64,000 bases of DNA from Desulfosarcina sp. BuS5 (GTDB lineage: Bacteria; Desulfobacterota; Desulfobacteria; Desulfobacterales; BuS5): the NCBI RefSeq assembly GCF_028752835.1, contig NZ_CP087952.1, positions 1,903,041 to 1,967,040 of the forward strand, written 5' to 3'. Under the pieces are notes generated by a model that saw only the letters and a list, made by a program, of their open reading frames with translations, did not search any database and had not been told where the DNA came from. This document shows positions 19,801 through 49,380 of this stretch, piece after piece. The position numbers and the translations under genes are program-made. The first letter of the stretch is position 1. Each line of letters opens with the position of its first letter.

Positions 19801-22800
19801 ATGCCTAAGCCTTCTATAATTTCCGGGAGTGGAGATATTGTGAAAAGAGATATTAAGGATAATAGCATAAAAACAGATTCAATATCCGGGGCTTTTCTTG
19901 TTGTTCAGGAAGGCCTGAAGTCTATGCAGGCCTTGCAGCTTAAAACCGCTGAAACACACGAAAAATTTCTGGAAACACAGGCCGAGGCGAGCCGTACTTT
20001 GCAGAAAATGATGGAGAGCACCGGGCGGCTTGTCGAAGCCTCAGCCGGTTTAAGTCCCGCACCGGCATGTAGTGATAATGTTTCTTCGGCAAGGAATGGG
20101 GATTCGTTTATATGCGCTGATGCTAATGTTAAAAGGGTTGCCGACAAAAAACCGGAGCAGGAAAATACGGACGCAGTTAATGCTGAAAAATCAACTCCCC
20201 CAAATGAAGCCCGGAAAGATTTCAATGATAAAGATACCGGATCTGTAGTAGATAGGGATATAGAGGAGAATCTGCTCAATGTAGTCACACTGCTCACCGG
20301 TTATCCTTCAGAGATGCTGGGGCTGGAAATGGATATAGAATCCGACCTTGGAATAGATTCAATCAAGCGGGTGGAGATATTCTCTACGTTGGAAGAAAAG
20401 CTGCCTGATCTTCCGGCTGTATCTCCTGAAAAGATGGCCGGCTTAAAGACCCTGGGGCAAATTGTTGATTATCTTTCCCGGAAAGAGACTTCAGATGTTG
20501 AATCAGATATCAATTATGCCGGAGCAACCGGTCTGGCGCATAATGAAATCAAAAATCATCTTTTGAGTGTAGTTACCGACCTCACCGGGTACCCTTCAGA
20601 GATGCTGGGATTGGAAATGGATATAGAGTCCGACCTTGGAATAGATTCAATAAAGCGGGTGGAGATATTCTCTACATTGGAAGAAAAGCTGCCCGATCTT
20701 CCGGCTGTATCTCCTGAAAAGATGGCCGGCTTAAAGACTTTGGGGCAGATAGCAGATTACCTGGCTCAAGATATTAAACCTGGTGATTCGGAAGATATTA
20801 TTCCTGTTGGCGCTGATCCTGTTCCTCATGTCGCGAACTCCGACAGAAGCAGAAAAAATAATGTCAAAAGGAGGGTAGTCTCTGTTGTTGAACAGAAGCT
20901 TGAAGATAGAAAGAGACTCTCCATACCGTCCGGAAGAAAAATTTATATTACAGACAGCAAAACCGGACTCGCGGAAATAATCGCAGATGAGTTTGCTAAG
21001 CATGGCATCAAAGCAGTAATTCTTTCAAAAGTAAATCCTCCCGAATTTTCGGAACTGCAATCCGCGGCCGGTCTTGTTTTGCTCCATGATGAAGGTATGA
21101 AAGGTGTGAACAGATCATCCCGGCAGGATGACGGTTTTCTTAAGGATGCTTTTTTACTGTCCAAAAGTTTTGCCAGGCATCTGCTGGATTCGGCAGATAA
21201 AGGCGGAGCCTTGTTCGCATCTGTTACTTCCATGGACGGAGCCTTCGGCTTCAGGGGGAAAACGGTTTTCAACCCTCTTTACGGAGGGCTGGCCGGTCTT
21301 ATAAAAACAGCCGCCATTGAATGGGAAGGAGTTAACTGCCGGGCCATGGATCTTGAACCAGGTTGGACTGATTTAAAAGATATAGCCGGAAAAATAGTCC
21401 TTGAACTTTTAAATTGTGCCTCCTCCTCATCCTCCGTGGAAATCGGTATAGCTCCGGCTTCAAGAGTAGTGCTTGAGCTGGAACCGTCTGAGTCTGATTC
21501 AGCCGTTGAAATCAGATCGGATATCAATAGTAATGATGTCATACTAATAACAGGAGGCGCAAAAGGTGTAACTGCAGCATCTGCTCTTGCTCTTGCGGAA
21601 TATGCACAACCGACCCTTGTGCTTCTTGGCCGTTCGCCTGAACCTGAATCTGAACCTGTTTGGCTTGCCTCTATTGATAATGAGGCTGATATGAAAAAAG
21701 CGATCCTGGAGCATGAGCAGGCTTTGGCCGGGAATGAAAAGGGGATCTTGACGCCTTCCATGCTTGAGAAGAAATACAGGAAGTATATTTCGAATCGGGA
21801 GATTTGCGGGAACCTTGAAAAAATAAAAAGAACAGGGGCGCGTGTATCATATTATTCTGTTGATGTTCGCAATCAAGACGAGGTTAAAGCTGTTTATGAT
21901 AAAGTCATCTTCGAGTATGGCCCTGCAACTGGTATTATTCACGGGGCCGGAGTTCTTGAAGATCGGTTGATAATAGACAAAACAGGGGAGCAGTTTGAAA
22001 AAGTTTTCGATACCAAGGTAAAAGGATTAAACGCGTTGCTGGAAGCTGTAAAAAATAATGATCTGAAATTTATTGTAATATTTTCATCCATAACCGCGCG
22101 TTCAGGTAATATTGGTCAGGCTGATTATGCTGTTGCAAATGAGGTTTTAAACAAGATGGCTCAACAGGAGTCTCTTGCACGTCCGGAATGCAGAACAGTC
22201 TCCATAAACTGGGGCCCCTGGGACGGCGGCATGGTAACCGAAGCATTGAAAAGGGAGTTTGCAGGGAAGGGGATAGCTTTGATACCTGTTGATAAAGGCG
22301 CAGAAAAGATGATTCGTGAGTTGTCCCTGGATCCGGACAGCCATGCTGAAGTGGTAATAGGGGCGGACTTTATCCCGGAACAGGATAATTCAGATGATAT
22401 GGAAGAACTCTCCCTGACCTTCAAACAAGAGGTTGATGTGCAAAAATTTCCTGTTTTACAGTCACATATGCTTGACGGTAAAGCTGTGGTTCCATTTGCT
22501 CTTATGGCCGAATGGTTCGGCCATGGAGCCCTTCACGCGAATCCCGGTCTTTTTCTCCATGGGCTTGATGACATGAGGCTTTTGAATGGGATAAAGCTTG
22601 AAAATGATACGAAGATGATACGCCTGATGACAGGGAGTCTACACAAAAACGGCACAATGTTCGAGTTGGATGTTGAACTTAAGGACGGCATTAAGGAGAA
22701 CGGCAAAGATCTTGTTCATTCCAGGGCCAGGGCTATATTAACATCCGGTTCCGTCCATCCCCCGGTTTACGTAAAGCCTGAGCGGAATGGGGAAAGAGAC

Positions 22801-23268
22801 TATAATCGAACAATTGATGATGTGTACGAACAAGTGCTGTTTCATGGTGAAAAACTCCATGGTATCAAGAAGATAGTCAGCATTTCTTCTTCGGGAATTG
22901 TGGCAGAGGTTGCTTCCGCTCCGGCCCCTTCGGACTGGATGATAAAACCGCTGAGGAGCAGATGGATTGCGGATCCCCTTGTGCTTGATTCAGCCTTTCA
23001 GGTGGCAACCCTTTGGTGTTATGAGGAACAAGGAGTTGTCTCTTTGCCGAGTTATGCAGCATCTTATCGCCAATATCGAAAGAGTTTTCCTTCGGATGAT
23101 GTAACAGTCATTCTTAAGGTAAACGATGTTACCGGCCGCAAGATGACCGGAGACTTTACATTTATAGATTCAAAAGAAGAAGTGATTGCAACATTAACAG
23201 GATACGAATCCATTATGGATGTTTCACTTTACAAGTCTTTCAAGCCACAGTATGCATCCGGAAAATAA
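16849..23268 (+). CDS. PfaA-like multidomain polyketide / fatty-acid synthase
   Basis: This 2139-residue type I synthase has the domain order KS-AT-ACP-ACP-KR-DH, like PfaA of polyunsaturated-lipid synthases. KS: Cys213 in DAACASS, His348 in EAHGTGT, His388 in MIGHTKAA. AT: from about residue 585, FPGQGSQYPGMG and Ser685 in GHSFGEL. Two ACPs carry phosphopantetheine serines at 1171 and 1267 (LGIDSIK). KR: nucleotide loop from about 1565 (ILITGGAKGV) and Tyr1760 in DYAVANE. A double hot-dog DH has His1873 in HMLDGKAVVP and Asp2047 in LDSAFQ. All active-site residues are present. No enoyl reductase, thioesterase, phosphopantetheinyl transferase or PfaB/C/D partner is in the window. The start is uncertain (ATG 16849 or 16870). 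The gene overlaps rlmN. The product is unknown. Confidence 0.9.
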   Translation: MKLNESRMQHNKPVAIIGMGCLFPKAASLKDYWRLIFNGIDGISDVPETHWSPADFFDANPEKPDHTYCKRGGFLPKIPFDPMEFGIPPSSLEATDTSQLLGLVAAKMALDDSGYGKGREFNREKTSVILGVTGTQELVIPLGARLGFPKWRAALENSGIPPEKADEVISRISDSYVAWQENSFPGLLGNVVAGRISNRLDLGGTNCVVDAACASSMGAINLAVMELQSGRSDMAVTGGVDTLNDIFMHMCFSKTMTLSSTGDARPFSKHADGTVLGEGIGIMILKRLEDAEKDNDRIYAVIKSIGSSSDGKSQSIYAPRPEGQEKALEMAYELAGVKPSSIELIEAHGTGTKVGDEAEFKALSKVFSLSSGNGHKCALGSIKSMIGHTKAASGAAGIIKAALSLYGKTLPPTLKADEPDPELDFGSTPFYLNSKKRPWLSKDGHPRRSGISAFGFGGSNFHLVLEEYKKKKEVVTWDGSVDILAISASSIQELSGLLDDFKDSLDHDMPLADIMAKTASARDRFSNKAKHRLLITLEIPVEFDDYLPMISDRIETAKKQLRSGMDKDFWSFENFFYGSGESKGGTAFLFPGQGSQYPGMGADIVCTFPDAMDALYSADKAFGKNGGVSDFIYPYNSTNGQAGTDHGKILGKTDIAQPAIGAVSFAMLRALQYFGLKPDVTAGHSFGELTALLAAGRIDMETFFSLSVARGSLMAKAGNNKDGDSGAMLAVQAPLEELDILIKDNADIVLANRNNMNQGVLSGATEAIDKIGKVCREKGYRSIKLDVSAGFHSSRVADAVEPFMGIVNDIDLIPAKIPVFSNTTGGRYPSDSKKAKELLGRHIGFPVDFISNIKNMYAEGIRNFIEIGPQTVLTGLVKSILEGREFNALAMDMSSGKKSGIADLARVLCNLAASGLNMDLTKWEHVSVSNKKQLMNIPLTGANYIESKGNNRANRVKEKKKAALHAAPRKAVIDDAPLDSITKDMPKPSIISGSGDIVKRDIKDNSIKTDSISGAFLVVQEGLKSMQALQLKTAETHEKFLETQAEASRTLQKMMESTGRLVEASAGLSPAPACSDNVSSARNGDSFICADANVKRVADKKPEQENTDAVNAEKSTPPNEARKDFNDKDTGSVVDRDIEENLLNVVTLLTGYPSEMLGLEMDIESDLGIDSIKRVEIFSTLEEKLPDLPAVSPEKMAGLKTLGQIVDYLSRKETSDVESDINYAGATGLAHNEIKNHLLSVVTDLTGYPSEMLGLEMDIESDLGIDSIKRVEIFSTLEEKLPDLPAVSPEKMAGLKTLGQIADYLAQDIKPGDSEDIIPVGADPVPHVANSDRSRKNNVKRRVVSVVEQKLEDRKRLSIPSGRKIYITDSKTGLAEIIADEFAKHGIKAVILSKVNPPEFSELQSAAGLVLLHDEGMKGVNRSSRQDDGFLKDAFLLSKSFARHLLDSADKGGALFASVTSMDGAFGFRGKTVFNPLYGGLAGLIKTAAIEWEGVNCRAMDLEPGWTDLKDIAGKIVLELLNCASSSSSVEIGIAPASRVVLELEPSESDSAVEIRSDINSNDVILITGGAKGVTAASALALAEYAQPTLVLLGRSPEPESEPVWLASIDNEADMKKAILEHEQALAGNEKGILTPSMLEKKYRKYISNREICGNLEKIKRTGARVSYYSVDVRNQDEVKAVYDKVIFEYGPATGIIHGAGVLEDRLIIDKTGEQFEKVFDTKVKGLNALLEAVKNNDLKFIVIFSSITARSGNIGQADYAVANEVLNKMAQQESLARPECRTVSINWGPWDGGMVTEALKREFAGKGIALIPVDKGAEKMIRELSLDPDSHAEVVIGADFIPEQDNSDDMEELSLTFKQEVDVQKFPVLQSHMLDGKAVVPFALMAEWFGHGALHANPGLFLHGLDDMRLLNGIKLENDTKMIRLMTGSLHKNGTMFELDVELKDGIKENGKDLVHSRARAILTSGSVHPPVYVKPERNGERDYNRTIDDVYEQVLFHGEKLHGIKKIVSISSSGIVAEVASAPAPSDWMIKPLRSRWIADPLVLDSAFQVATLWCYEEQGVVSLPSYAASYRQYRKSFPSDDVTVILKVNDVTGRKMTGDFTFIDSKEEVIATLTGYESIMDVSLYKSFKPQYASGK

Positions 23269-31855: not shown

Positions 31856-31930
31856 GGTCCCATCGTCTAGCGGTTAGGACGCCGGCCTCTCACGCCGGAA
31901 ACCGGGGTTCAATTCCCCGTGGGATCACCA
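31856..31930 (+). tRNA. tRNA-Glu(CUC)
   Basis: A 75-base cloverleaf with encoded CCA. The acceptor arm GGTCCCA pairs with TGGGATC (one G-U). The anticodon stem CCGGC/GCCGG encloses CTCTCAC, giving anticodon CUC. The T arm CGGGG-TTCAATT-CCCCG is canonical. Its 3' half is the attachment core of the neighbouring integrative element, which restores the full tRNA sequence. Confidence 0.95.
31883..31930 (+). other. Attachment site attL (48-bp direct repeat)
   Basis: These 48 bases, from the anticodon stem to the CCA end of tRNA-Glu, recur exactly at 37123-37170 in the same orientation. The sequences diverge on both sides. This is the standard footprint of tyrosine-recombinase integration into a tRNA 3' end. 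Confidence 0.9.
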
Positions 31931-35300: not shown

Positions 35301-35804
35301 TCAGAAGCCAATCTTCCTTGTCGGCTTACTCTCTGTTTCTATCAATTGCTTTATGGCATCAAATACTATCCTGAACTGTTCATCATATTTGCTTTCCATG
35401 TGCTCTATTTTTCTTTTTAAATCTTCATGTGTTGAAAGCATTCGCCTGATTTGTGTGAATGCTCTCATAATCTGGATGTTGACATGGATAGCTCTTTTGC
35501 TGTTAAGTACACTTGAAAGCATGGCAACGCCTTGTTCGGTAAATGCCATAGGTCTATATCTTAACCCCATCTTAACATTGCTATTGGAGGTGCCAATTTG
35601 GCATCTCCAATTTTTCAACTCATCTTTTGTCAATTCAAACATGAAGTCTTCAGGAAAACGGTCAATATGTCTTCTTACAGCTCTTTTTAACTGGCTTGTT
35701 TCCACACCGTAAAGCTCTGCCAAATCCCTGTCCAGCATTACCTTGATGTTGCGGATAAGATATATTTTTCCGGTTATTTTTTCCATTGGCATAATTTCTG
35801 TCAT
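35301..35804 (-). CDS. ORF6N-domain protein
   Basis: This 167-residue protein has an N-terminal ORF6N domain, common in phages and integrative elements: GKIYLIRNIKVMLDRDLAEL then YGVETSQLKRAVRRHIDRFP and EDFMFELT. A variable middle and a conserved YRPMAFTEQGVAMLSSVL segment follow, and then a C-terminal coiled coil (LKRKIEHMESKYDEQFRIVF). Proteins of this type are thought to bind DNA and regulate phage genes. It lies 6 bases downstream of the integrase coding region on the same strand. Confidence 0.85.
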   Translation of the reverse strand: MTEIMPMEKITGKIYLIRNIKVMLDRDLAELYGVETSQLKRAVRRHIDRFPEDFMFELTKDELKNWRCQIGTSNSNVKMGLRYRPMAFTEQGVAMLSSVLNSKRAIHVNIQIMRAFTQIRRMLSTHEDLKRKIEHMESKYDEQFRIVFDAIKQLIETESKPTRKIGF

Positions 35805-35810
35805 GCTGGC

Positions 35811-36978
35811 CTATCCTTTATTTTGCGCATCCTTTAAATCGATGACACTACTTTTCCGGTTTACTGACTGGCTGATGATATCACCTGCAAGGTCGGAGGC
35901 TTTTCTCAGCGCATCATCTCTTAAATGGGCATATCTTTGGGTCATAACAGGACTTTTATGCGTCAATAATTTTTGCAAGGTGTACAATATCAACCTTGCC
36001 GCTTGAAGCCAACATTGATGCGTATACGTGCCTTAAACCGTGAAGAGGCCTGAAGTCCTTCGGTAGTCCGGCACGTTTTTTTATTTTATTTGCAGCACTC
36101 CTGACAGTTATCCGCATTCCTCCATTTTGGCCGGGAAATATATACTCGCTGCCGGTTCTCACATGCCCTTCTAATATGGCTCTGGCTTCATTATTTAATG
36201 GAATTTTCTGGTCAACCCCACCTTTGGGTGATCTGATATTGATAAAACCCTTCTCGAAGTCAATATCCTTCCACCTAAGCTTGAACAATTCGCCTCTTCG
36301 CATTCCTGTAAATAGTGCCATTTTCATCAAGTTAGCAGCTTGGACGTTCGATTCAGTTTCAAGGACTTTTAGTAATCGTGATAGTTGACCAGGTGTTAAA
36401 TCTTCGGTCTTGATGTTATTCACTACTGGTTTTTGTACATGGAAAGACAGCCCTTTGCATAATCCTTTTTTCACACCAAAGCTGGTAATCCATGTTAAAA
36501 GATTCAAAACGTGTTTAACTGTCTGGGGTGCCAACTTTTTTTTTAACCTTAGCCTCAAACGGTCAACTTCAAGCGGCGCTATTTTTTGCGGCTCTTTGTT
36601 GCAGAACACAGGCTGTATGTATTTTTTATATCGACCTGCATCTGTCTTACGTGATTTGTTATCAGGCCTGCTTTGTATGTATTCATTAAACAGTTTGTTT
36701 ATCGTCCATTTGCCTGCTTCAGTTTTCTTTCTGGCTTCTTCGGCTTCCCTTTTTTCACTGTTCGATTTCGCCCCTTGTATCCGTTCCGCCCGTAAATGTG
36801 AAGCCCGGGCAGGTGTCATATCGTCCTGGAACTGCCGGCCAGCCTTTTCGTTAATCAATTTGCCTGCTTTGCGATACGTTATGTAGTAAATCTTTTCCGG
36901 CTTATTTGCGCCGATAGCTTTTCCATTAATGTAACGTACTCCAGGATAGTTTGTTTTGTATTGTTTTTGTGCGGGCAT
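35811..36978 (-). pseudogene. int: Tyrosine integrase with frameshift
   Basis: This integrase of about 388 codons would catalyse insertion at tRNA-Glu. Reading from ATG 36978, an N-terminal arm-binding domain (YPGVRYINGKAIG) and a SAM-like core domain lead to the catalytic box I (MALFTGMRRGELFKLRW) and HxxR (LHGLRHVYASML). After GKVDI the frame breaks near 35988. The remaining catalytic part, LYTLQKLLTHKSPVMTQRYA, with the nucleophilic tyrosine, continues in another frame to 35811. One extra base explains it. Either the integrase is inactive or there is a sequence error. Confidence 0.85.
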
Positions 36979-38113: not shown

Positions 38114-38998
38114 ATGGTGTCACATGGAAAGGATAATTTTTTGAGCCGGCAAAATATCACGCAAGATTTATGCTTGCCAGTAACTTACAGTAAAACAAAG
38201 GATTGTATTATAAACAAGGAATATCAGGCAGTTCTTAAGCGGCATCAATTGGATACCTTTAATTCTGTTTTTATGTTTAAAGGAGGTGAAACCGCAAAGA
38301 CTCTAAAGGAAAGATCTGTAATCCGTTTTGAAGTAGAGGATATTGATGCAACAAAAACATTTTATTTAAAGAGACATAACTTGAGCTTTATTGGGCCAAA
38401 AAGACTGGTTTCTTTATTTTTTCCGAATACGGCTGTCTCTGAAGGCATAAAAGAATTTAAAAATATTTGCAATTTCCGTAAAAAAAACCTGGCAACTGTT
38501 GTACCTGTAGCGGCCGGTGAAAAATTTGTTAATTTTTTTTGGGTGGAGTCGTTTCTTTTAACAGAAGACTTTTCGCCTTTTATTCCATTGGAAGACTTTG
38601 TCAAAGAGCAACCGGAATTTTTTAAAGGCAGGAAACAAAAATTGTTAAAGGAGATTGCTGTTTTTGCACGCCGCATGCATGCGCAGGGTTTTAATCATCG
38701 TGATTTTAACACAACCCATATTCTTGTTAAGTATAGTTCCGCAGATCAAAGTCCTGAGCTGGCGGTCTTTGATCTGCAAAGGGTAAATAAAAACAGGTTG
38801 TTTAAATTTCGCTGGATGATCAAGAGCCTTGCGCGGGTAAATTATTCTCTCCCCGATCATCTGTTTACAGTCAAAGATATAATCTATCTTTTCATGTCCT
38901 ATAAAGGTAAAAAAGAAATTAATTTTCTGGATCGCTGCCAATGGTTCTGGATAAATCGGAAAACCGAAAAAATAAAAAAACATACTGAAAAAAAATAA
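38114..38998 (+). CDS. WaaP-like lipopolysaccharide kinase
   Basis: This 294-residue protein has the Kdo/WaaP kinase fold, expected to phosphorylate a sugar of the LPS core in the cytoplasm. A lysine in TFYLKRHNL suits ATP binding; the catalytic loop is GFNHRDFNTTHILV at about residues 193-206, and the metal-binding aspartate is in VFDLQRVN. The RBS is AGGAG. It is the first gene of a plus-strand set with a membrane glycosyltransferase, a double kinase and a GT4 enzyme. Confidence 0.85.
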   Translation: MVSHGKDNFLSRQNITQDLCLPVTYSKTKDCIINKEYQAVLKRHQLDTFNSVFMFKGGETAKTLKERSVIRFEVEDIDATKTFYLKRHNLSFIGPKRLVSLFFPNTAVSEGIKEFKNICNFRKKNLATVVPVAAGEKFVNFFWVESFLLTEDFSPFIPLEDFVKEQPEFFKGRKQKLLKEIAVFARRMHAQGFNHRDFNTTHILVKYSSADQSPELAVFDLQRVNKNRLFKFRWMIKSLARVNYSLPDHLFTVKDIIYLFMSYKGKKEINFLDRCQWFWINRKTEKIKKHTEKK

Positions 38999-39028
38999 AC
39001 TCAAACATAGGATCAGTGGGATATATCC

Positions 39029-40609
39029 TTGGATAAAAACTTAATAATAAATAAAATAAAAAAATTGCCGGGAAGTCATGGGGGGTTGCTCTTTGTATTA
39101 TTAACCTCCTTATTTCTTAAATGTGTAATTCTGATTATTACGTATGATAACCCTTTTAATCCTGACGGCATTTTATATATAGCTGCGGCCAAACAACTAT
39201 CCGCCGGACACTTTAAAGAAGCATTGGCTTTATACCCAATGCCTTTTTATCCTTTTCTTATAGCCCTGGTTCATGCCTGCATTCTCTCCTGGGAGATGGC
39301 CGGCAGACTTCTCTCGCTTATGTCCATGGTCTTGGCAATTATACCGTTTTATCTTTTGACCCGGGATTTATTCAGCCGGAAGGCTGCCTTCTGGGGAACA
39401 CTGGCTTTTGCGCTGGTTCCTGTGGTTAATGAGTGGTCTGTGGAAGTTTTGCGCGGACCGCCTTATATATTCTTTGCAGCCTGGGCTGTTTTTTTTGCGG
39501 TACGCTCATTTCAGGTTAAAACGATAAATTACTTTATCCCGGCTGCTGTTTTTTCCTGTTTTCCGTTTTTATGCAGGTTTGAAGGCTTTATTTTTATTCC
39601 TCTATATTTCTTTTTTCTGATTCTGCTAACCATTATCAGGCCTACTGAAAGGCGCTGCTACTTAAAAGGAGTTTCTGTATGCCTTGTATTATTTTTGCTG
39701 ATTGGCGTGCTTTCTTTTGCTGTTTTTAAAACAGAAGAATCGTCCCTGAACAGGCTTGATCAGCTTGCAGAAGAAATCAGTATATTATCGGAGTTTAAAT
39801 TTCTGAATAATTACCATTTGTTATACGAGCAGCTTAAGGCGCTTGAAGATACGTCGCCATACCCCAACGGCAAACAGAACTTTGCTGAAATTACAAGGCA
39901 CTATATGTTTGTCATTTATTGGTTCGGTATAATAGAGAGCTATATAAAAATAATTTTTCCTTTGTTTATCATTCCGCTTTTGTGGGGAGTTAAACATAAA
40001 CTGTCAATAGCACGTGTTTATTTACTGGTTTTAGTTATTTTTTACCTGCTGATGATTTATTATTCCCTTGTTGAAAGGGACTTTATCCAAAAAAGATTTT
40101 TATTTGCGGCGGTCTTTTTTTCCTATCCGTGGATAGGCTTGGGAATGGAACGTTTCTTTTTGTTAATTAAGAACCATCCAAAATCACGGCTAATCGGTTG
40201 TGCTTTAGCTGTTGTTTTTATTCTGGCGCCTCTTTGCGGTACTGCCGCGTCATTTAAAAAGCAGGATAACAGGATGAAAGAAGCCGGAAAATGGTTGGCT
40301 GGAAATATACGCTTAAAAAATGCCGGGATAATATCAACAGATTCAAGAGTTCTTTTTTATGCAGGCAGAGATTGCTATATTGAGCCTGAGAAAGAATGCA
40401 AATGTTTTATAAAACATGACCATGACTATTCGGACATAGAGCAGACCGCTATGAGCGGCGGATATGATATAATTATTTTTAGAACATCACTTAAAAGAAA
40501 GCATCTGATTCCTGAAATAAAATATTATAAAAAAATAAAATCTTTTTCAGGTAAAAAAAATATTGTCCTATTTTATTGTTCTCCTGATTTTGTAATGACT
40601 TCAAATTAA
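39029..40609 (+). CDS. ArnT/PMT-like membrane glycosyltransferase (GT39-type)
   Basis: This 526-residue polytopic protein should transfer a sugar from a polyprenyl-phosphate donor on the periplasmic side of the inner membrane. After a first membrane helix, the loop YDNPFNPDGILYIAAAKQL carries the acidic residue typical of this superfamily. About ten further hydrophobic segments follow, and the soluble tail is about 110 residues. The start is TTG 39029. It lies 30 bases after the kinase gene and likely acts on the same glycan. Confidence 0.8.
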   Translation: MDKNLIINKIKKLPGSHGGLLFVLLTSLFLKCVILIITYDNPFNPDGILYIAAAKQLSAGHFKEALALYPMPFYPFLIALVHACILSWEMAGRLLSLMSMVLAIIPFYLLTRDLFSRKAAFWGTLAFALVPVVNEWSVEVLRGPPYIFFAAWAVFFAVRSFQVKTINYFIPAAVFSCFPFLCRFEGFIFIPLYFFFLILLTIIRPTERRCYLKGVSVCLVLFLLIGVLSFAVFKTEESSLNRLDQLAEEISILSEFKFLNNYHLLYEQLKALEDTSPYPNGKQNFAEITRHYMFVIYWFGIIESYIKIIFPLFIIPLLWGVKHKLSIARVYLLVLVIFYLLMIYYSLVERDFIQKRFLFAAVFFSYPWIGLGMERFFLLIKNHPKSRLIGCALAVVFILAPLCGTAASFKKQDNRMKEAGKWLAGNIRLKNAGIISTDSRVLFYAGRDCYIEPEKECKCFIKHDHDYSDIEQTAMSGGYDIIIFRTSLKRKHLIPEIKYYKKIKSFSGKKNIVLFYCSPDFVMTSN

Positions 40610-40632
40610 TAATAAAAAAATAGATCATTTTT

Positions 40633-42132
40633 TTGACAGACGTGAATAAAACAACAGAGACTCAAGACAGGGCAGCGCCTGCTATGGATGTGGATCCTGG
40701 ATCATCCGGATATGCAATTAAAACACCTTTTCGGGTAAGCCTCAATGCCGGCGGGCAGATAGTCGAGCTTGTATGCCACAAGGCTTTGCGAATCTTACCC
40801 GGCAAACGATTGGTATGTTGCGGAAAATGGACTGACAAAAAAATCGTTGCGAAATTTTTTCTTGATCCAAACAAGGCTGCAAAACATTGTGAACGTGAGG
40901 AGAATGGTTTATCGGCTCTTCGTAAAGCAGGCATCAAGACGCCTGCTTTACTATTTAAAGGCGCTCTTCATCAAGTGGCCTTGCCGGTTTTAATTTTCAA
41001 AAAGCTTGATCCGGCAGATAATTTGGAAATACTTTGGAAAAAAGCAGAGTCACACAGCCGGCGCATAGACCTTCTTAAAAAAATTGTCAGGATTATAGCC
41101 GTTCAACATGAGGCCGGAATAAAACAGGATGATATCCATTTGGCGAATTTCATGCTGTTTAAAGATCAAATTTATACTCTTGACGGCTCTGCCGTTGATT
41201 TCAGGAATCTGGGAAGACCTTTGCCTGCCGCAGCTTCGTTGAATAACCTTGGCTTGTTTCTGGCCCAGTTTTATCCTGAATTTGACGAATTAATAAAAAA
41301 AATATTTGCATTATATATATCAAAAAGATCAATATTGTTTAAGCAGAATGACTGCGAACGCTTAATTAAAAAGGTTTTCCTTTACCGCGAATATAAAAAA
41401 AAGAGCTACCTTAAAAAAATTTTCAGGGAATGTTCGGCCTTTGCCTGTAAAAAAAATCATAATAGCCTCACGATTTGTGATCGGCAATATCAGTCTGAAC
41501 TTATGGATACTTTCCTGGCAGATCCTGATAATTTTTTTAAAACAGGCACGTTTTTAAAACAGGGCAACACCTCTACGGTTGCGTTGGTGAAAATCGACGG
41601 CCGGCAACTTGTTGTAAAACGATATAATATAAAAAGTTTCCGGCACAGCTTCAGGTACCTGTTCCGAAAAAGCAGGGCTTCAGTTTCATGGAAAAATGCA
41701 CAAAGATTATTTTACGTGCTAAATATTCCCACCCCCAAACCGGTTGCGTTTCTGGAAAAGCGAGTGGGCTTATTTAAAAAAAAATCGTACTTTATTACGG
41801 AATACATTGATGGTATAAATGCTTATAATCTATTCCATTCAAATGAAGTTGAGGATATTGCCGGAAGAAAGCATCTGGTCTGTATGTTCGGAAGGCTTTT
41901 GCAGTCACTATCCGATGCCTTGCTTAGTCATGGGGATTTTAAAGCCTCAAACTTTATTATTGCAAATGACAAAATTTTTTTACTCGATCTTGATGCCATG
42001 CAGGAGCACAGCTTCAGGTGGATGTTCCGCAAAAAGTTCAGGCGGGACTGCCTGCGGCTGACGCAGAATTTGAAAGATTTACCAGAACTATCGGAGATGT
42101 TTAAAAACCGGATAACCGGTTTGCATCTGTAA
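40633..42132 (+). CDS. Tandem double LPS-kinase-like protein
   Basis: This 499-residue protein contains two kinase-fold halves. The first (about residues 40-230) has GKRLVCCGKW, AKFFLDPNKAAKH, the catalytic-loop-like GIKQDDIHLANFML and IYTLDGSAV. The second (about 300-490) has GRQLVVKRYN, YFITEYIDG, SHGDFKASNFIIAND and FLLDLDAMQ. Both halves keep the catalytic Asp, the Asn and the DFG-like Asp, so both may be active. The TTG start at 40633 is uncertain; GTG 40642 or ATG 40684 are alternatives. It is predicted to act on LPS-type glycans by context. Most family members have a single domain. Confidence 0.8.
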   Translation: MTDVNKTTETQDRAAPAMDVDPGSSGYAIKTPFRVSLNAGGQIVELVCHKALRILPGKRLVCCGKWTDKKIVAKFFLDPNKAAKHCEREENGLSALRKAGIKTPALLFKGALHQVALPVLIFKKLDPADNLEILWKKAESHSRRIDLLKKIVRIIAVQHEAGIKQDDIHLANFMLFKDQIYTLDGSAVDFRNLGRPLPAAASLNNLGLFLAQFYPEFDELIKKIFALYISKRSILFKQNDCERLIKKVFLYREYKKKSYLKKIFRECSAFACKKNHNSLTICDRQYQSELMDTFLADPDNFFKTGTFLKQGNTSTVALVKIDGRQLVVKRYNIKSFRHSFRYLFRKSRASVSWKNAQRLFYVLNIPTPKPVAFLEKRVGLFKKKSYFITEYIDGINAYNLFHSNEVEDIAGRKHLVCMFGRLLQSLSDALLSHGDFKASNFIIANDKIFLLDLDAMQEHSFRWMFRKKFRRDCLRLTQNLKDLPELSEMFKNRITGLHL

Positions 42133-42144
42133 CGAGTTAATCAA

Positions 42145-43326
42145 ATGATCAAAAAAAAGAGAATAACCGTTTTTGTCTCCTCTTTAAAAGGTGGCGGGGC
42201 CGAACGTGTTATGCTGAATCTTGCATCCGGGCTTGCGGAGCGAGGGCAGCAGGTCGATCTGCTCCTGGCACGAAAAGAAGGCCCATACTTAAAATATGTG
42301 CCTGATTCGGTACGATTGGTTGTTCTGCCGCAGTGTTCAAGATTGAGAGGTCTGTTGACAATCCTGAACAGCAGGCCTTCTCTTTTTTTTAAGCTCTTAT
42401 CCTTTCATCCTGCCAGAATGCTTAGGTTATTGCCGGGCTTGATACATTATTTGCTGAAAAGAGAACCGGATACAATCATATCAGGCTTGCACAATTGTAA
42501 CCTAGCAGCTTTATGTGCATGCTTTTGCATTAAAAGCAGGATACAGACCATAGTTGTTGAGCATAACACCCTCAGCAAAATAATTAATTCAGTCCCGGCA
42601 AGAAAAAAGCGGCTGCTCCCTTTGATAAATTATTTTTATCCCAAGGCAAATAAAATTGTTGCTATTTCAGATGGCGTCAAAGCTGATTTAATAAAAACAG
42701 CAAATCTTCAGTCGGATAATATTGTTAAAATATACAATCCAATAGTGACTGAAGAACTTCGGGAAATGGCAAGGCTGGAACCCGATCACCCCTGGTTCCG
42801 AAAAGGAGAGCCGCCTGTTATTATTGGAGTCGGTCGTCTTGTCCCGCAAAAAAAATTTTCGACACTTATCATGGCTTTTGCCAAAATAAGGTCAAAACGG
42901 AACTTACGCTTAATGATCCTGGGAGAAGGCAGGCTGCGTAAGGAGCTTGAACAACTGGCCGAACAATTACAAGTAGCTGATGATTTTATAATGCCGGGAT
43001 TCCAGGATAATCCATTTGCCTGTATTTCCAAGGCATCCGTATTTGTTCTGTCTTCAGTCTGGGAAGGATTAGGCTCTGTTTTAGTTGAAGCGCTTGCAAC
43101 AGGTTGTGCCGTTGTCAGCGCTGATTGCCCTCACGGTCCTTCAGAAATCCTTGAAAAAGGCAAATACGGACGAATTGTACCTGTAGGCGATTATAAGGCC
43201 ATGGCCGATGCAATTCTGCAAGCTCTTGATACTCCGGCAGATCGTAATGTCCTGATTGCGCGGGCGGACGATTTTTCAGTTAGTCTTATAGTAGAGCAGT
43301 ATTTACAATTGATAAATGATTTTTGA
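42145..43326 (+). CDS. GT4-family glycosyltransferase
   Basis: This 393-residue cytosolic or peripheral GT-B enzyme opens TVFVSSLKGGGAERVMLNLA, the usual acceptor-side glycine-rich loop. Its nucleotide-sugar side shows GVGRLVPQKKFSTLI, LMILGEGRLRKELE and the EX7E-like SSVWEGLGSVLVEALATG. It is the last gene of the plus-strand glycan set. Its stop codon TGA is formed together with the first bases of a 126-bp inverted-repeat element. Confidence 0.9.
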   Translation: MIKKKRITVFVSSLKGGGAERVMLNLASGLAERGQQVDLLLARKEGPYLKYVPDSVRLVVLPQCSRLRGLLTILNSRPSLFFKLLSFHPARMLRLLPGLIHYLLKREPDTIISGLHNCNLAALCACFCIKSRIQTIVVEHNTLSKIINSVPARKKRLLPLINYFYPKANKIVAISDGVKADLIKTANLQSDNIVKIYNPIVTEELREMARLEPDHPWFRKGEPPVIIGVGRLVPQKKFSTLIMAFAKIRSKRNLRLMILGEGRLRKELEQLAEQLQVADDFIMPGFQDNPFACISKASVFVLSSVWEGLGSVLVEALATGCAVVSADCPHGPSEILEKGKYGRIVPVGDYKAMADAILQALDTPADRNVLIARADDFSVSLIVEQYLQLINDF

Positions 43327-43450
43327 TGGCGTCGTAAAAAGTCTCCATATACTGCGTTATAGCGTTTGGCCATACGCTTGACATGCTACATGTATGCCTT
43401 CACGCATGGCTAAACGCTATGCCTTGTATATGAAGATTTACTTAGCCATC
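43325..43450. repeat. 126-bp imperfect inverted-repeat element between convergent genes
   Basis: The ends are GATGGC (43325) and GCCATC (43450), and complementarity continues inward through GTAAA, CATATA and TAGCGTTTGGCCATACG (43360-43376) against CGCATGGCTAAACGCTA (43403-43419). The whole element can fold into one long hairpin. It contributes the last two bases of one stop codon and, at the other end, the complete stop of the converging gene. A matching end, TGATGGCGTCGTAAA, occurs at 61108. Confidence 0.75.
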
Positions 43451-44281
43451 GGTTTTACTTTTTGCGAGTATATCATTTTTAGCGCGAGTTTTTTTTATTA
43501 TCCGTTTGCATATTTTTTTTACGCGTCCATCCAGCCTGTCCGTATCAAAATAAGCATAAAGAAATCTGATACGGTCTGCAGCGCTCCATCCTTTTGCGCG
43601 GCGATGCAAAGATTCCAGATCCCTGCACACTCTGTTTAAAGCAAAAAATCCCTGCTTGCTCTTTTCAAGGTCTATCAACCTTATCAGGAAATCATCCCCA
43701 TTCCGCTTAATAAAAATATGCTTGGGATACATGGAATTATGCATTAATCCTTTAGCATGCATCCTGCTTATGCATTTCGCAATAACTTTTATTAAATTAT
43801 TTTTTGTATTGCGCGGCCATTCTGCCTGTTTCCATCTTTTGACAAGATTATCCAGGGAGACAAATCCATCAAGAAATTCAGTAATCAATATAGCCTGCAC
43901 ACCGTTTTTTTTGCGCCTGGCAAAATATACAGGTTTCATAACCGGGATATTTTGCCTGTCATAACGCAGAATGCTGATCATCTCTTTTTCAAAGGTCGGT
44001 ATGCCTGTACATGGGTGAAGAAGAGTGCGCGAATTATGATTTTGCTGGCGTTTTATTATCAGTTTTTTACATGCGCCATTATCCAGCTCTAAATTAATAG
44101 CGCAGACAGAACTCCATCCGTCACGACTTCGCCCTATGTTCGGTGTATCCAGTGAAACCAGATCAAGCCCCCATAAAGCCTCAAAATCTGCCAGGCCCTG
44201 CTTTAAAAATACTCCTTTCCATTGAGGATCAAAAAAATATTTCATATCAATTATTTGAAAATTTATGCCTGCGTTGTTCAC
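43442..44281 (-). CDS. InaA/WaaP-family kinase
   Basis: This 279-residue kinase-fold protein has KKLIIKRQQNHN for the ATP lysine. The catalytic loop is GLMHNSMYPKHIFIKRNG at about residues 178-195, with His-Asn in place of the usual His-x-Asp, as seen in InaA-type members. IRLIDLEKSKQGFF supplies the metal-binding Asp. It overlaps the next upstream gene by 35 bases. Its stop codon lies inside the 126-bp inverted-repeat element. Role by context: phosphorylation or an ethanolamine-type modification of LPS core, unproven. Confidence 0.8.
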   Translation of the reverse strand: MNNAGINFQIIDMKYFFDPQWKGVFLKQGLADFEALWGLDLVSLDTPNIGRSRDGWSSVCAINLELDNGACKKLIIKRQQNHNSRTLLHPCTGIPTFEKEMISILRYDRQNIPVMKPVYFARRKKNGVQAILITEFLDGFVSLDNLVKRWKQAEWPRNTKNNLIKVIAKCISRMHAKGLMHNSMYPKHIFIKRNGDDFLIRLIDLEKSKQGFFALNRVCRDLESLHRRAKGWSAADRIRFLYAYFDTDRLDGRVKKICKRIIKKTRAKNDILAKSKTDG

Positions 44282-44996
44282 AAAAATATTGCTTAAGCTC
44301 TGTGCCGGGAAAAAGATCAGATTCCAGCGAACAGAGCAGTTTTTTCCATACTTTTATGCGTTTAAAATAAAATATAATCGGAACTCTAAAATACCACGGC
44401 CATTTTTTCAGAGGCAGGAACCTCTCAAGGTCAATCAAGGCGATCTCATCACTATCTTTTTTTATAAAAATATGCCATGCGACCCAATCAGGGAAATAAT
44501 AACCTGCTTTATGAACCTTGCGGATTATGCCGGATATCCTTAAAAAATAGTCATGCCTCCGGGACATAAAAAAATCAATAACCTCTGTCGGAGCGTTGCG
44601 CGATATCAAATTGCTCAGCGAATAAAAATTTTTAAGATTGGCATACAAAAGAAAACCCCGCCTCGCCTGATCGTCAAAAGCATGCATATCCAAATCAGCG
44701 CTTCGAAGGCCGAAATTCAGAATATGCCTTGCTGCTTCATATTCATTTATTATAGATTCGTATGAAACACCCTGAGCCTGTTTCAAATAAAATATTTCAT
44801 CATTTACAGTAATCCTGGTCATCTGACGGTTAATATCGTTGGTTTTTTTGTCAATATGCTTACGCATCGACTTAAGTTGCATTGCCGGTTTATTTTTTTC
44901 AAGATCCCAAAAATCAGAAAAATCCTTTAAACTAATTTTTGCAAATTTTTGTTCCGCTTTTTTATTGTGCCAATTTATTTTTACCATGCTGTTCAT
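44247..44996 (-). CDS. WaaP/InaA-like kinase
   Basis: This 249-residue protein is related to the neighbouring kinases. It has EIFYLKQAQGV for the nucleotide lysine, a catalytic region AGYYFPDWVAWHIFIKKD and a metal site IALIDLERFLPLKKW. The catalytic-loop Asp is in FPDW rather than HRD, a pattern known in LPS heptose kinase relatives. Its 3' end overlaps the following kinase gene by 35 bases, so the two are almost certainly coexpressed. Confidence 0.75.
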   Translation of the reverse strand: MNSMVKINWHNKKAEQKFAKISLKDFSDFWDLEKNKPAMQLKSMRKHIDKKTNDINRQMTRITVNDEIFYLKQAQGVSYESIINEYEAARHILNFGLRSADLDMHAFDDQARRGFLLYANLKNFYSLSNLISRNAPTEVIDFFMSRRHDYFLRISGIIRKVHKAGYYFPDWVAWHIFIKKDSDEIALIDLERFLPLKKWPWYFRVPIIFYFKRIKVWKKLLCSLESDLFPGTELKQYFCEQRRHKFSNN

Positions 44997-45005
44997 AATA
45001 CAACA

Positions 45006-45902
45006 TTAAATTTTATGAAATCCATACTTGTTGATCTTCCAGCCCCTGGAGGTGTTTTTATAATCGAATTGCACGATCTTGTCTAACTCCTCCCATGACG
45101 CTTTTGTGCCACGTTTTTCTTTGGGCAGCCATTTTCCTGACTTCCAGTTCATGAAATGCAGGTATAGAAATTCTTTGCCATGATCCAGGTTGTTCGTAAG
45201 CCGCCCATCATGCCAGTACCATTCATCAGGAAAGTTAAATGTTCCGTCAATCCAGGGTATATTGGAAAAGATGGTGCTGTATCTTTCCTCAAAACAGCAT
45301 GATCTTTGATATTTGTCGAATACCCCCATCAGTTTTCGCAGTATAGGAGGATATCTTTTATGCCTTAGATAAATCTTGGACAGCTTTGATTCGTCTATAC
45401 TTAAATGTACCGGATTTTCCATCATGTTTTGCCAGCCTTTTATCCTTTTGAATGCATTTTTATTCATTTCAGTATTTTTGAAAAGGCAGAAATGACCGGA
45501 GATCTTATTATAATGGGTTGATATCATATTGTATCTCAAGATATCGTCCGTGTAGAATTTTCTGATATTGCCATAAATAACATCTATATCGCCCCATCCA
45601 TAATAGTCGTATCCTGATAAATACTGCTCGTTAATAACTCCGTAAGCAGGTTTAATATCGCAAAGCTTATAAGGATCTCCTGTAAAATTTATTTCTAAAC
45701 TGGATGAAATAAGCTGTCGATATTCGTCAAAACCGGTTTTAACATAGGCAACATTAGGGCATCTGTTTTCAGGTTCAGCACAATCAGTGAAAAAAAGCCA
45801 GTCTATGGTAGGGTTCCTTTTGCATGATTCCAGATAAAGGTTAAACCATTCCGGCCACTTGCCGAAATAAGGCATCAGCATGATAATTTTTTTATAACTC
45901 AT
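45006..45902 (-). CDS. DUF6625-type putative glycosyltransferase
   Basis: This 298-residue protein opens IIMLMPYFGKWPEWFNLYLE, then FFTDC, and has the DXD-like YGWGDIDVIYG at about residues 100-110 for nucleotide-sugar and metal binding. The second half contains aromatic motifs (WIDGTFNFPDEWYWHDGRL, YLHFMNWKSGKW). This pattern fits the DUF6625 family of LPS or capsule-linked GT-A-like enzymes. It lies between a WaaG-like transferase and two kinases on one strand. Donor and acceptor are unknown. Confidence 0.75.
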   Translation of the reverse strand: MSYKKIIMLMPYFGKWPEWFNLYLESCKRNPTIDWLFFTDCAEPENRCPNVAYVKTGFDEYRQLISSSLEINFTGDPYKLCDIKPAYGVINEQYLSGYDYYGWGDIDVIYGNIRKFYTDDILRYNMISTHYNKISGHFCLFKNTEMNKNAFKRIKGWQNMMENPVHLSIDESKLSKIYLRHKRYPPILRKLMGVFDKYQRSCCFEERYSTIFSNIPWIDGTFNFPDEWYWHDGRLTNNLDHGKEFLYLHFMNWKSGKWLPKEKRGTKASWEELDKIVQFDYKNTSRGWKINKYGFHKI

Positions 45903-45947
45903 ATCCTTTCGTTCACAGGGTGTGGCCAGCCATTAGGGCTTTCCCTG

Positions 45948-47057
45948 CTATAATTTTTCTATAATATCCGCAATTTTTTCAGGCATGCGGAATATATCCA
46001 TACCGGCTGCATATTGTTTGCCGTTATTCCTCCAATCCTCTTTTGTTTCGGCGGTTAACATGGATAACAGGATATTATTAAAGGTCTCCTGTTTAAAGGG
46101 AGATGGTATAATTTTACCTGCATCGGCGTTTTTGATGTGAAAGCTGTATCCGCAAACTTCTGTTACTATCACCGGCAAGCCGACCGCCAGCGCCTCGATC
46201 AGAACCGTGCCGGTATTCTCATGATAAGCCGGATGAAGAAGAATATCCGATGCGACAAGGAGTTTGGGGATATCGTTCCGCCCCCCCAGAAAATTAACCC
46301 TTTCTGCAACTCCTGCCTGCACGGCCAGTCTTTTGAACGGTTTTATTTTATCCTCGCCGGCTACCAGTAAAAAAGTTTTGTGATAAATATCAAGCGGCAA
46401 GCTTGCAAGCGCCAGGATAGATCTGTCAACACCCTTCCGTTTATACCCGCTGCCGACCATTAAAAGAATGTTTTCATTATGACCGATTGAGAATTCTTTT
46501 CTCACTTGATGACGGATTGCGTCAATCTCTCCTGTAATAATGCGATCTTTCGAAATTCCGGGTGAGAGAGTATGAAAGCGTTCCTGATCCGTTCCGTAGT
46601 AATTTATATAAAGATCTTGCTGCTGGTGTGAGATAGAAAGGATATGAGTGTGCGAATCTTTTCCGAACACAGCCTGTTCCATTTCAAGATTACTTTTGCA
46701 GCGCCCGGTCATGCGATACAAAAAGCTGCGACCGGCGGCTTTGACTGCGTAACAGGGGTCGGCCGCGTAATAAAGATCCAGAAAAGGCATTTTGTTAAAT
46801 CCCACAATAGCGTTATAGTTTATTTTTTGTAAAAAAGGTTTTATGTTTTTTACGAAATTTTCACGCTGCCTGTGATTGGTAAAACCGGCCGCAGGAATTA
46901 TGGTAACTTTTATGTTTTCCGGAAGATCTCCCTTCCAGGCCATTGTATATATATCGACATTATGGCCACGGGCGGAACAGGCTTCGGCTATTTGCAGGCA
47001 GTCACGTTCCAGGCCGCCGAATGGAAAATACTTAAAAAGGCAGAACGCTATTTTCAC
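45948..47057 (-). CDS. WaaG-like LPS core glycosyltransferase (GT4)
   Basis: This 369-residue GT-B enzyme resembles WaaG, which adds the first hexose to the heptose of the inner core. Landmarks are FGGLERDCLQIAEACSARGH, the WaaG-typical VGFNKMPFLDLYYAADPCYA, LLMVGSGYKRKGVDRSIL, and the donor-binding HPAYHENTGTVLIEALAVGLP. It is the first gene of the minus-strand glycan set, and two kinase genes follow it, as waaP follows waaG in enterobacteria. I did not give a symbol because the acceptor is unproven. Confidence 0.85.
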   Translation of the reverse strand: MKIAFCLFKYFPFGGLERDCLQIAEACSARGHNVDIYTMAWKGDLPENIKVTIIPAAGFTNHRQRENFVKNIKPFLQKINYNAIVGFNKMPFLDLYYAADPCYAVKAAGRSFLYRMTGRCKSNLEMEQAVFGKDSHTHILSISHQQQDLYINYYGTDQERFHTLSPGISKDRIITGEIDAIRHQVRKEFSIGHNENILLMVGSGYKRKGVDRSILALASLPLDIYHKTFLLVAGEDKIKPFKRLAVQAGVAERVNFLGGRNDIPKLLVASDILLHPAYHENTGTVLIEALAVGLPVIVTEVCGYSFHIKNADAGKIIPSPFKQETFNNILLSMLTAETKEDWRNNGKQYAAGMDIFRMPEKIADIIEKL

Positions 47058-47320: not shown

Positions 47321-48172
47321 TTAAAAAAAAGACAATTTAACTCGATCCGAAATAATTTTTTCCATACGCAAGTATTCAAAAAAAGTATTGAGGCCTTTTA
47401 TTTGGGAAGAATCAAGGGAATAGAATAATCCATTAAAATATTTTTTGCATATATCCTTGTGAAGAGCAAGCTTGTTTGAGGTATCAATAATAATTTTTTC
47501 TATATTTTTCAGGCCTTTTTCTTTTGAGTTAAGTAAAAGATCTATAACCTCTGAAACTGCATCCGGCCGGTCTTCAGCAAATTTTTTCCTTACAGCCCAT
47601 ACCGAGAAAACAAACGGCAGCCCGGTTAAGGTCTGCCACATTTCACCCAGGTCTCTGACATGCACGTACATGGTCTGCCATTCCCAGTTAAGGGCTGTGT
47701 CGCCGATAACAAGCGCCGCATCGGCGTCTTGATCAATATCAGCCGGATTATGAATCGTCACACTTTCAAAAACAGGTCGGATATTATTTTTAAGGAAGAG
47801 CAGCTTGATTAATTTTGCCGCTGAAGCGGAGTCGTCGGTTAATATTACTTTTCTATTATTGAGTTCTTCAAAAGGGAGTTTGCCGGCAAGCAAGACACTC
47901 ATGACCTTGCCCAGACAGGAAATTGAAAGATCCGGAAGCAGCAGCCAGTTGTTTTGGTGTAGTGCATACGCAACGGAAGAAACAGGGCTTATATCTATTT
48001 CACCCATGGAAAGCATGTTGTTTAATACTGCCGGCGGTGAGCTGACAATTTCGCACCATTCAGGTTTCAGGCTGCCATTCAGCAGATAGTATACCGGCGC
48101 AACATTTACATAGCTGATACGGCCTATTTTAACCTTTGGTTTTAAAGAATTATTTGGAGTTGAATACGTCAT
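47321..48172 (-). CDS. mqnA: Chorismate dehydratase (futalosine pathway)
   Basis: MqnA converts chorismate to 3-enolpyruvyl-benzoate, the first step of futalosine-route menaquinone synthesis. The 283-residue protein has the periplasmic-binding-protein-like fold: IGRISYVNVAPVYYLL at the start, SPVSSVAYALHQ, LTDDSASAAKLIKLLF, DAALVIGDTALNW and GLPFVFSVWAVRKKF. I chose the ATG at 48172, which overlaps the stop of the upstream deaminase gene (ATGA); the frame is open 8 codons more. Its product feeds MqnE, encoded 3 kb upstream. Confidence 0.92.
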   Translation of the reverse strand: MTYSTPNNSLKPKVKIGRISYVNVAPVYYLLNGSLKPEWCEIVSSPPAVLNNMLSMGEIDISPVSSVAYALHQNNWLLLPDLSISCLGKVMSVLLAGKLPFEELNNRKVILTDDSASAAKLIKLLFLKNNIRPVFESVTIHNPADIDQDADAALVIGDTALNWEWQTMYVHVRDLGEMWQTLTGLPFVFSVWAVRKKFAEDRPDAVSEVIDLLLNSKEKGLKNIEKIIIDTSNKLALHKDICKKYFNGLFYSLDSSQIKGLNTFFEYLRMEKIISDRVKLSFF

Positions 48173-49380
48173 GATGAAAGTAAAAGAGTATCGCATAAAC
48201 CATTGAAATCGGCATTGACAATTTTATTGATAAGATCGTCCCGGCCGGCGGCGCAAAAGGGGACATAGGTAAATATACCTTTTTTGCCCGGCAGGAGAGA
48301 GCCGGTCAGATTCCCAAGAGCAAGAGCTTTTGCTCCTGCGGAGGTTGCCATTTCTAAAATATCAGCAGGAGCGACCAGGGGAAAATACTCTGAAACAAAA
48401 GCCATTTCATCGAATATACTAAGTGTCTCTGCGCTGGCAAGGCTGTCTGTGCCGAGGCATGGTTTTATTCCGGCTGCCAGCATTCTTTCTATGTCGGGCA
48501 GCCTTTGATGCAAATTTTGATTGCTTCTTGGGCAAAGGCATACCTGAACCCCGTTTTTTTTAAGTATTTCCAGATCCTTTTTATCAGTATGGAGTAGATG
48601 CACGGCTATGGTATGCTCATCCAGCACGCATAGTTTGTCCAGGTATTGCACAGGTGTTGCGGCGGGGAGATCCCATTCAGAAAATTTTATATCCCTTTCC
48701 GTCAGAAAATCAGCCCATGCTCCTTTCCCTGTGGTGATAAAGAAGTGTTCATCATCCGATTCCGCCAGGTGAATCGAAAAAGGGAGGTTCATTTGGATCG
48801 TCATTTTTTTTAAAGCAATTATCATTTCCGTTGAAGTTGTATGGGGCGCATGGATTGCCAGGGATTGATCAATATGATTTTTTTTATGCGCATCAAATTC
48901 ATCCTGGGAGCCGTTTGTAATATTACCTATGAACTCTTTAAACCAGATACCGTAGATACTGGACGCGGCCATGGCCTCCCAGGTGAGGCCGAGAGTTGAT
49001 ATCTCACCCACCACCCCGCAGCCTGATTGAATAATTTCCCTTATTCCGTCTGCCGCGCTGTCTCGTAAAGCCTCACCTGCTGATTCACGTTCTTTAATAA
49101 GGCTTTTGACCCATGAACTCAATCCTTGATCGAGTGTAACCTTTCCTTTCAATGCTGTCAGTTCAAGATGGGTATGGGTGTTGACAAGGGCAGGCATTAT
49201 AGCGCCGGGCCCATGGTCAATCATATTAACGCCGCCGGGACCGCGGCCGGAGCCGACATCTTTAATAATCCCATTTTCCATATACAAAAAACCATTTCGA
49301 AAAATGGTTTTTGAATCCACTACAATCCAACCTGCTTTGTGTTTTACTGAAACGTTATTTTTATTTTTGCAATCAACCAC
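48169..49380 (-). CDS. mqnX: Amidohydrolase, probable aminodeoxyfutalosine deaminase
   Basis: This 403-residue metal-dependent deaminase of the amidohydrolase superfamily has VNTHTHLELTALKG (HxH metal ligands), LAIHAPHTTS, SIHLAESDDEHFF, TIAVHLLHT and the catalytic Asp in LGTDSLAS. Overlap with mqnA and nearness to mqnC and mqnE indicate that it deaminates 6-amino-6-deoxyfutalosine. The enzyme family includes ATZ/TRZ and SAH deaminases, so the substrate is assigned by context. The start is GTG 49380 with a weak RBS. Confidence 0.8.
   Translation of the reverse strand: MVDCKNKNNVSVKHKAGWIVVDSKTIFRNGFLYMENGIIKDVGSGRGPGGVNMIDHGPGAIMPALVNTHTHLELTALKGKVTLDQGLSSWVKSLIKERESAGEALRDSAADGIREIIQSGCGVVGEISTLGLTWEAMAASSIYGIWFKEFIGNITNGSQDEFDAHKKNHIDQSLAIHAPHTTSTEMIIALKKMTIQMNLPFSIHLAESDDEHFFITTGKGAWADFLTERDIKFSEWDLPAATPVQYLDKLCVLDEHTIAVHLLHTDKKDLEILKKNGVQVCLCPRSNQNLHQRLPDIERMLAAGIKPCLGTDSLASAETLSIFDEMAFVSEYFPLVAPADILEMATSAGAKALALGNLTGSLLPGKKGIFTYVPFCAAGRDDLINKIVNADFNGLCDTLLLSS

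Follow-up and report, generated by a model that had tools for sequence, protein, structure and literature searches.

A locus at positions 38114-47057 of the window, by which we mean the whole 64,000-nt stretch of DNA analysed, encodes four kinase-like proteins among its eight products, and raises the question of what such a set of kinases is for and whether its size is exceptional. The first-pass annotation had described two convergent gene sets that encode four LPS-kinase-type proteins with five kinase domains between them, together with two GT4 enzymes, a DUF6625 protein and a PMT-like transferase. This description is borne out by the open reading frames and Pfam matches, the kinase domains being of the Kdo/WaaP family, and an inverted repeat lies between the sets. 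We argue that the region is very probably an LPS core-oligosaccharide locus, homologous to the waaG-waaP-wapP-wapQ-PA5006 block of Pseudomonas but rearranged.

Organisation and surroundings of the locus

The predicted features, each with the evidence on which it is assigned, are as follows.

38114..38998, + strand: K1, putative WaaP-type LPS kinase of a sister subfamily of WaaP (Pfam Kdo, RfaP, PDB 6dfl, motifs, tree)
39029..40609, + strand: PMT-like membrane glycosyltransferase (Pfam PMT_2)
40633..42132, + strand: K2, two-domain kinase, PA5006 counterpart (profile, identity, tree)
42145..43326, + strand: GT4 glycosyltransferase, not WaaG (Pfam Glycos_transf_1)
43359..43420, no strand: inverted repeat separating the two convergent sets; candidate terminator of transcription (arm complementarity)
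43442..44281, - strand: K3, WapQ-type kinase homologue with the HRD aspartate replaced by serine (profile, tree, motif)
44247..44996, - strand: K4, divergent Kdo/WaaP-family protein with FPD for HRD (Pfam Kdo)
45006..45902, - strand: DUF6625 protein with a D-x-D motif, suspected to be a glycosyltransferase (Pfam DUF6625, alignment)
45948..47057, - strand: WaaG/WapG, core glycosyltransferase (identity, match to solved WaaG)

All eight frames are open (249-526 aa), with no frameshift seen. The genes for K3 and K4 are adjacent, overlapping by 35 nt if K3 starts at the GTG at 44281 and not at all if it starts at the ATG at 44245. The inverted repeat has 18-nt arms that are 89% complementary, and a terminator-like match at 43404-43422 comes from a scan that finds about equal numbers in shuffled sequence, promoter-like and terminator-like sites alike being about as frequent in shuffles as in the real sequence. 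The stretch 43329-43430 is a repeat element with one further copy (96% over 75 bases) in the same genome, at G000:C1:1186850-1186924.

Directly upstream of the locus, at 35301-36978, lie phage-type integrase and antirepressor-like ORFs, possibly the remnant of an integrated element, with a tRNA-Glu at 31856 and what we take to be a transposase-like ORF at 32593. Elsewhere, the window holds a 2139-aa ORF (16849-23268) that presumably encodes a subunit of a synthase for polyketides or polyunsaturated fatty acids, a menaquinone-biosynthesis protein (PF02621, by Pfam) and, at about 7.8-13 kb, what we take to be a Qrc-like complex; the last two suggest that the host is an anaerobic sulfate reducer.

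Number and specificity of Kdo/WaaP-family domains

All four kinase-like proteins match PF06293 (Kdo) above its gathering cut-off of 21.3 bits, with scores of 90.8 for K1, 68.1 for K2 over two stretches, 128.6 for K3 and a weak 26.1 for K4. In a search of the host genome the two halves of K2 score separately, at 22.6 and 48.6 bits, giving five domains in all, and these five are the only matches at E <= 0.01 in the assembly, which is 97% complete. Of 14 control genomes, 8 also have a PF06293 match above the cut-off, Gram-positives and archaea being among the matches listed. A Kdo match alone is thus not LPS-specific, so the case for LPS has to rest on the kinase subfamilies and their neighbours.

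The first-pass annotation had taken enterobacteria as its only yardstick, against which five kinase domains seemed exceptional. We dropped this reading once Pseudomonas-type loci and genomes of the order had been counted, because the Pseudomonas block already comprises four kinase proteins with five domains and 13 of the 291 sampled genomes of the same order have 5-8 Kdo matches. At least one match was found in 175 of the 291, in a count that scored at most 10 candidates per genome and may include some non-LPS kinases; the host genome gave four matches in this run against five when searched singly.

Assignment of the four kinase-like proteins

Profiles for WaaP, WapP, WapQ and PA5006 were built from 77-79 Pseudomonas-type rows, and profile searches, to which the first-pass annotation had looked for a separation of kinase types, place K1 beside WaaP, K2 with PA5006 and K3 with WapQ, but leave K4 without a counterpart.

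K1 scores 71 bits against the WaaP profile, matches the solved WaaP structure (PDB 6dfl) with an E-value of 1.3e-13, and reaches 107 bits against the NCBIfam model RfaP, below the equivalog cut-off of 170. It retains all six WaaP catalytic residues that were checked (K51, E78, H161, D163, H168 and D188). In our tree, in which K4, WaaY and InaA were flagged for long branches and Pa_5006N, Pa_5006C and Pa_WapQ for composition, K1 forms a clade with relatives (support 100/99) and groups with WaaP and K4 (97/92), outside the WaaP clade proper. By profile and tree K1 is therefore a WaaP-type sister subfamily and not WaaP itself, and since it falls both below the equivalog cut-off and outside that clade, its acceptor may differ.

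K2 aligns to the PA5006 profile at about 312 bits over profile positions 9-474, covering both domains, with 33% identity to PA5006 over 447 columns, and each of its halves groups with the matching half of PA5006 (100/100 and 98/94). The C-terminal domain (K2C) keeps the lysine and both aspartates; it lacks E78 and has asparagine at H168, as in PA5006, the alpha-C glutamate being replaced in all 77 PA5006 rows too. The N-terminal domain (K2N) keeps both aspartates and has glutamine at H161 and asparagine at H168, its lysine being uncertain because the K51 region aligns poorly. Other multi-domain kinases occur in relatives: a 767-aa ORF of a same-genus relative (G001; L119:2843-5146) gives three Kdo matches and may encode an LPS kinase of three domains, and kinases of 533-557 aa with two domains, which score only 98-121 bits against the PA5006 profile, are present in a different family of the phylum (L225-L229).

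K3 scores 196 bits against the WapQ profile and groups with P. aeruginosa WapQ in a clade (98/91) that holds two relatives as well. Its motif HNSMYPKH carries serine in place of D163, the HRD aspartate. The same position is cysteine in 78 of 78 Pseudomonas-type WapQ rows, one of which also lacks the DFG-type aspartate, and in E. coli InaA; in 12 distinct proteins of the order that score at least 100 bits against WapQ, the one in the window included, it is cysteine (10) or serine (2). With the HRD aspartate missing in all 91 WapQ/InaA proteins examined, its loss in K3 is, as judged from these alignments, a family trait. Two earlier papers bear on this: the WaaP substitutions D163A and H161A each abolish growth support (PMC6147952), and P. 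aeruginosa wapQ can be deleted with minor fitness effects, according to earlier work cited in PMC8982409, which itself reports that the surface is altered in a wapQ mutant of P. syringae. The constant absence of the aspartate and the deletion data call into question a kinase activity of WapQ. According to PMC1821047, there are hardly any key kinase residues that are not replaced in at least one family; our literature search on WapQ returned no statement of the missing aspartate, which does not prove that there is none in print.

K4 is, as far as profile scores can tell, the sole kinase-like protein of the locus without a Pseudomonas counterpart. Its best score against a Pseudomonas-type profile is 15 bits (WapQ), and an identity as WapP was ruled out at 2.0 bits against the WapP profile. 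That profile gives 38-40 bits with K3 and K2C, far below their scores to their own families, and no protein of the locus is a WapP counterpart by profile match. Among 291 sampled genomes of the order K4 has no other match, and among 297 sampled genomes of the phylum, besides its own, there are seven with weak matches (20-32 bits) and none with a clear orthologue; five of the seven, all belonging to a single family, fall within larger kinases of two domains, one within a K1-like kinase and one within a stretch with stops. K4 has phenylalanine at H161 (FPD for HRD) and keeps the other five WaaP residues, including the HRD aspartate that K3, the product of the adjacent gene, has lost. In the tree it sits on a long branch whose place is unsure, inside the 13-row WaaP side (97/92). 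A structural model built from 7 alignment rows has a mean pLDDT of 55.0 and a pTM of 0.53, and the 50 Foldseek matches listed are all kinases or kinase-like, with TM-scores of 0.30-0.47 in the top ten; at this level of confidence and similarity the model supports the fold only.

Glycosyltransferases

The product of 45948-47057 is 46.7% identical to its P. aeruginosa PA7 homologue and 44.3% identical to E. coli WaaG, matches the solved WaaG structure 8b5s at 373.6 bits over residues 3-366, and on these grounds is WaaG. Pfam finds GT4 domains in this protein and in that of 42145-43326, which scores 122.6 bits for Glycos_transf_1 and reaches no NCBIfam equivalog cut-off among the matches listed. 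The protein of 45006-45902 matches DUF6625 at 178.6 bits (Pfam). It is suspected to be a glycosyltransferase with a D-x-D motif, D105 and D107 being invariant in six of six aligned sequences; searches of solved structures with the single sequence and with a profile gave no convincing match, a single-sequence model (pLDDT 32.7) was too low for use, and no relative was found in viral contigs nor any paper on DUF6625 in a literature search. DUF6625 is rare: of 282 sampled genomes, 10 have a match at E <= 1e-10. Locus L190 holds a homologue. The protein of 39029-40609 matches PMT_2 at 44.2 bits (Pfam) and nothing among solved structures at E up to 1, has homologues of 38-40% identity in loci L116 and L131, and is predicted to use a polyprenyl-linked sugar.

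Comparison with Pseudomonas, E. coli and relatives in the order

The gene order waaG-waaP-wapP-wapQ-PA5006, on one strand, is found in 79 of 80 loci around waaP, the exception being a Stutzerimonas locus (L113) that lacks wapQ; these 80, nearly all from Pseudomonas or close kin, are the best of at least 549 confirmed stretches, picked by likeness to P. aeruginosa WaaP. The block and the window locus have in common WaaG, WapQ, a kinase of WaaP type and PA5006 with its two domains, and each totals four kinase proteins with five domains. They differ in that the Pseudomonas block has WapP, whereas the window lacks it and has K4 instead, and in that the window genes form two convergent sets, include K1 from outside the WaaP clade proper, and lie far from the waaC/waaF-like genes rather than adjacent to them. 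A search of the PA7 segment with the PMT-like and DUF6625 proteins gave no match, which makes both of them additions to the Pseudomonas set. Kinases of the Pseudomonas core cluster phosphorylate, or are thought to phosphorylate, the core heptoses, according to PMC8005017, PMC6147952 and PMC8707732, the first of which also tabulates PA4998 as a further kinase of the cluster. The waa locus of E. coli K-12 likewise has WaaG and a WaaP-type kinase, but its only kinases are WaaP and WaaY, inaA lying elsewhere in the genome, and it has no annotated two-domain kinase.

Similar clusters, some fuller than that of the window, recur in the order. Among 43 segments compared (the window and 42 from relatives whose genomes hold kinase or DUF6625 matches), many of which end at contig ends, the dual kinase is present in 12, the window included. 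These 12 also carry WaaG (8), a PMT-like protein (5), WapQ (3), WapP (2) and DUF6625 (2), and some of the four without WaaG are cut at contig ends. The fullest sets are those of G071, where WaaG-WaaP-WapP-PA5006 and, in addition, WapQ span about 9 kb, and of G180, with WaaG-WaaP-WapP-PA5006-DUF6625-GT4-PMT, which thus shares DUF6625 with the window. The clusters of G071, G180, G279 and G006 combine WaaG with WaaP or a K1-like kinase and a PA5006-type kinase, often with a PMT-like protein; unlike the window, the first three segments hold canonical WaaP as well as WapP, and nothing in them matches K4. In several relatives the locus genes lie beside WaaA and WaaC/F-like genes.

Function of the locus and alternative explanations

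Most likely, its chemistry being argued by analogy, the locus serves to assemble the LPS inner core and to phosphorylate it at several sites. An LPS core role, as the first-pass annotation had supposed, is favoured by the presence of WaaG and by the three kinases that match kinases of the Pseudomonas core locus, as well as by the clustering of the same genes in relatives. The host genome also encodes an HldE kinase domain (369 bits, above the cut-off of 345), WaaF-like and WaaC/Q-like GT9 proteins and two WaaA, so that a heptose core is possible. Homology to WaaG, a WaaP-type kinase (K1), PA5006 (K2) and WapQ (K3) is evident from the profiles and identities above; for substrates, order of action and activity we propose the following. 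At the inner face of the inner membrane, WaaG would add the first outer sugar to heptose II of lipid A-core. K1 would place phosphate on heptose I, and K2, perhaps with K4 in the place of WapP, would add further phosphates. K3 would act as WapQ does, assisting or by another chemistry. The GT4 and DUF6625 proteins would add further core sugars, and on the periplasmic side the PMT-like protein would attach a sugar taken from a polyprenyl-phosphate donor. The finished core would, like that of Pseudomonas, carry several phosphates and be bridged by cations, and the highly phosphorylated core suggested by the first-pass annotation is a fair analogy with that genus.

A somewhat unlikely alternative is that the proteins do act on the LPS core but the majority of the kinase-like ones are pseudokinases with a regulatory or scaffolding role, the core being not unusually phosphorylated. 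The first-pass annotation had itself raised the inactivity of most proteins, and the residues point both ways: K3 lacks the HRD aspartate, K4 the HRD histidine and K2N has glutamine for that histidine, the very two positions at which substitution abolishes growth support by WaaP, but K1 keeps all six residues checked and K2C its lysine and both aspartates, with the glutamate replaced as in all 77 PA5006 rows, and E. coli WaaY, which is annotated as a heptose II kinase, has no histidine at the H161 position either. In a related proposal, one that we regard as quite unlikely, WapQ/InaA proteins would be widely conserved pseudokinases organising core assembly, or kinases of another chemistry, and K4 would be the catalytic partner of K3 here.

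It is very unlikely that the locus is an island, decayed or newly acquired, whose gene copies no longer function, for all that integrase-, antirepressor- and presumed transposase-like ORFs lie upstream and that one relative (G003) keeps only the two neighbouring genes (47321-49380), with no locus protein in the 16 kb examined; the eight intact frames speak against it. Less likely still is a locus for capsule, exopolysaccharide or another glycolipid phosphorylated by its kinases. The PMT-like and DUF6625 proteins, unmatched in the PA7 segment searched, would fit such a product, as would the limited specificity of Kdo matches, but WaaG lies inside the locus and the same genes stand beside WaaA and WaaC/F-like genes in several relatives.

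We therefore retain the reading as a core locus, which is, on present comparisons, a rearranged relative of the known Pseudomonas core kinase set plus one orphan kinase, K4. The most interesting lead from it is the constant loss of the catalytic aspartate in WapQ/InaA, which puts the name "heptose kinase" for WapQ in doubt. More broadly, the core kinase set of Pseudomonas type, with the two-domain PA5006 on which little has been written, also occurs in a distant order, presumably of anaerobes, and the locus provides comparative material for establishing which kinase places which phosphate.
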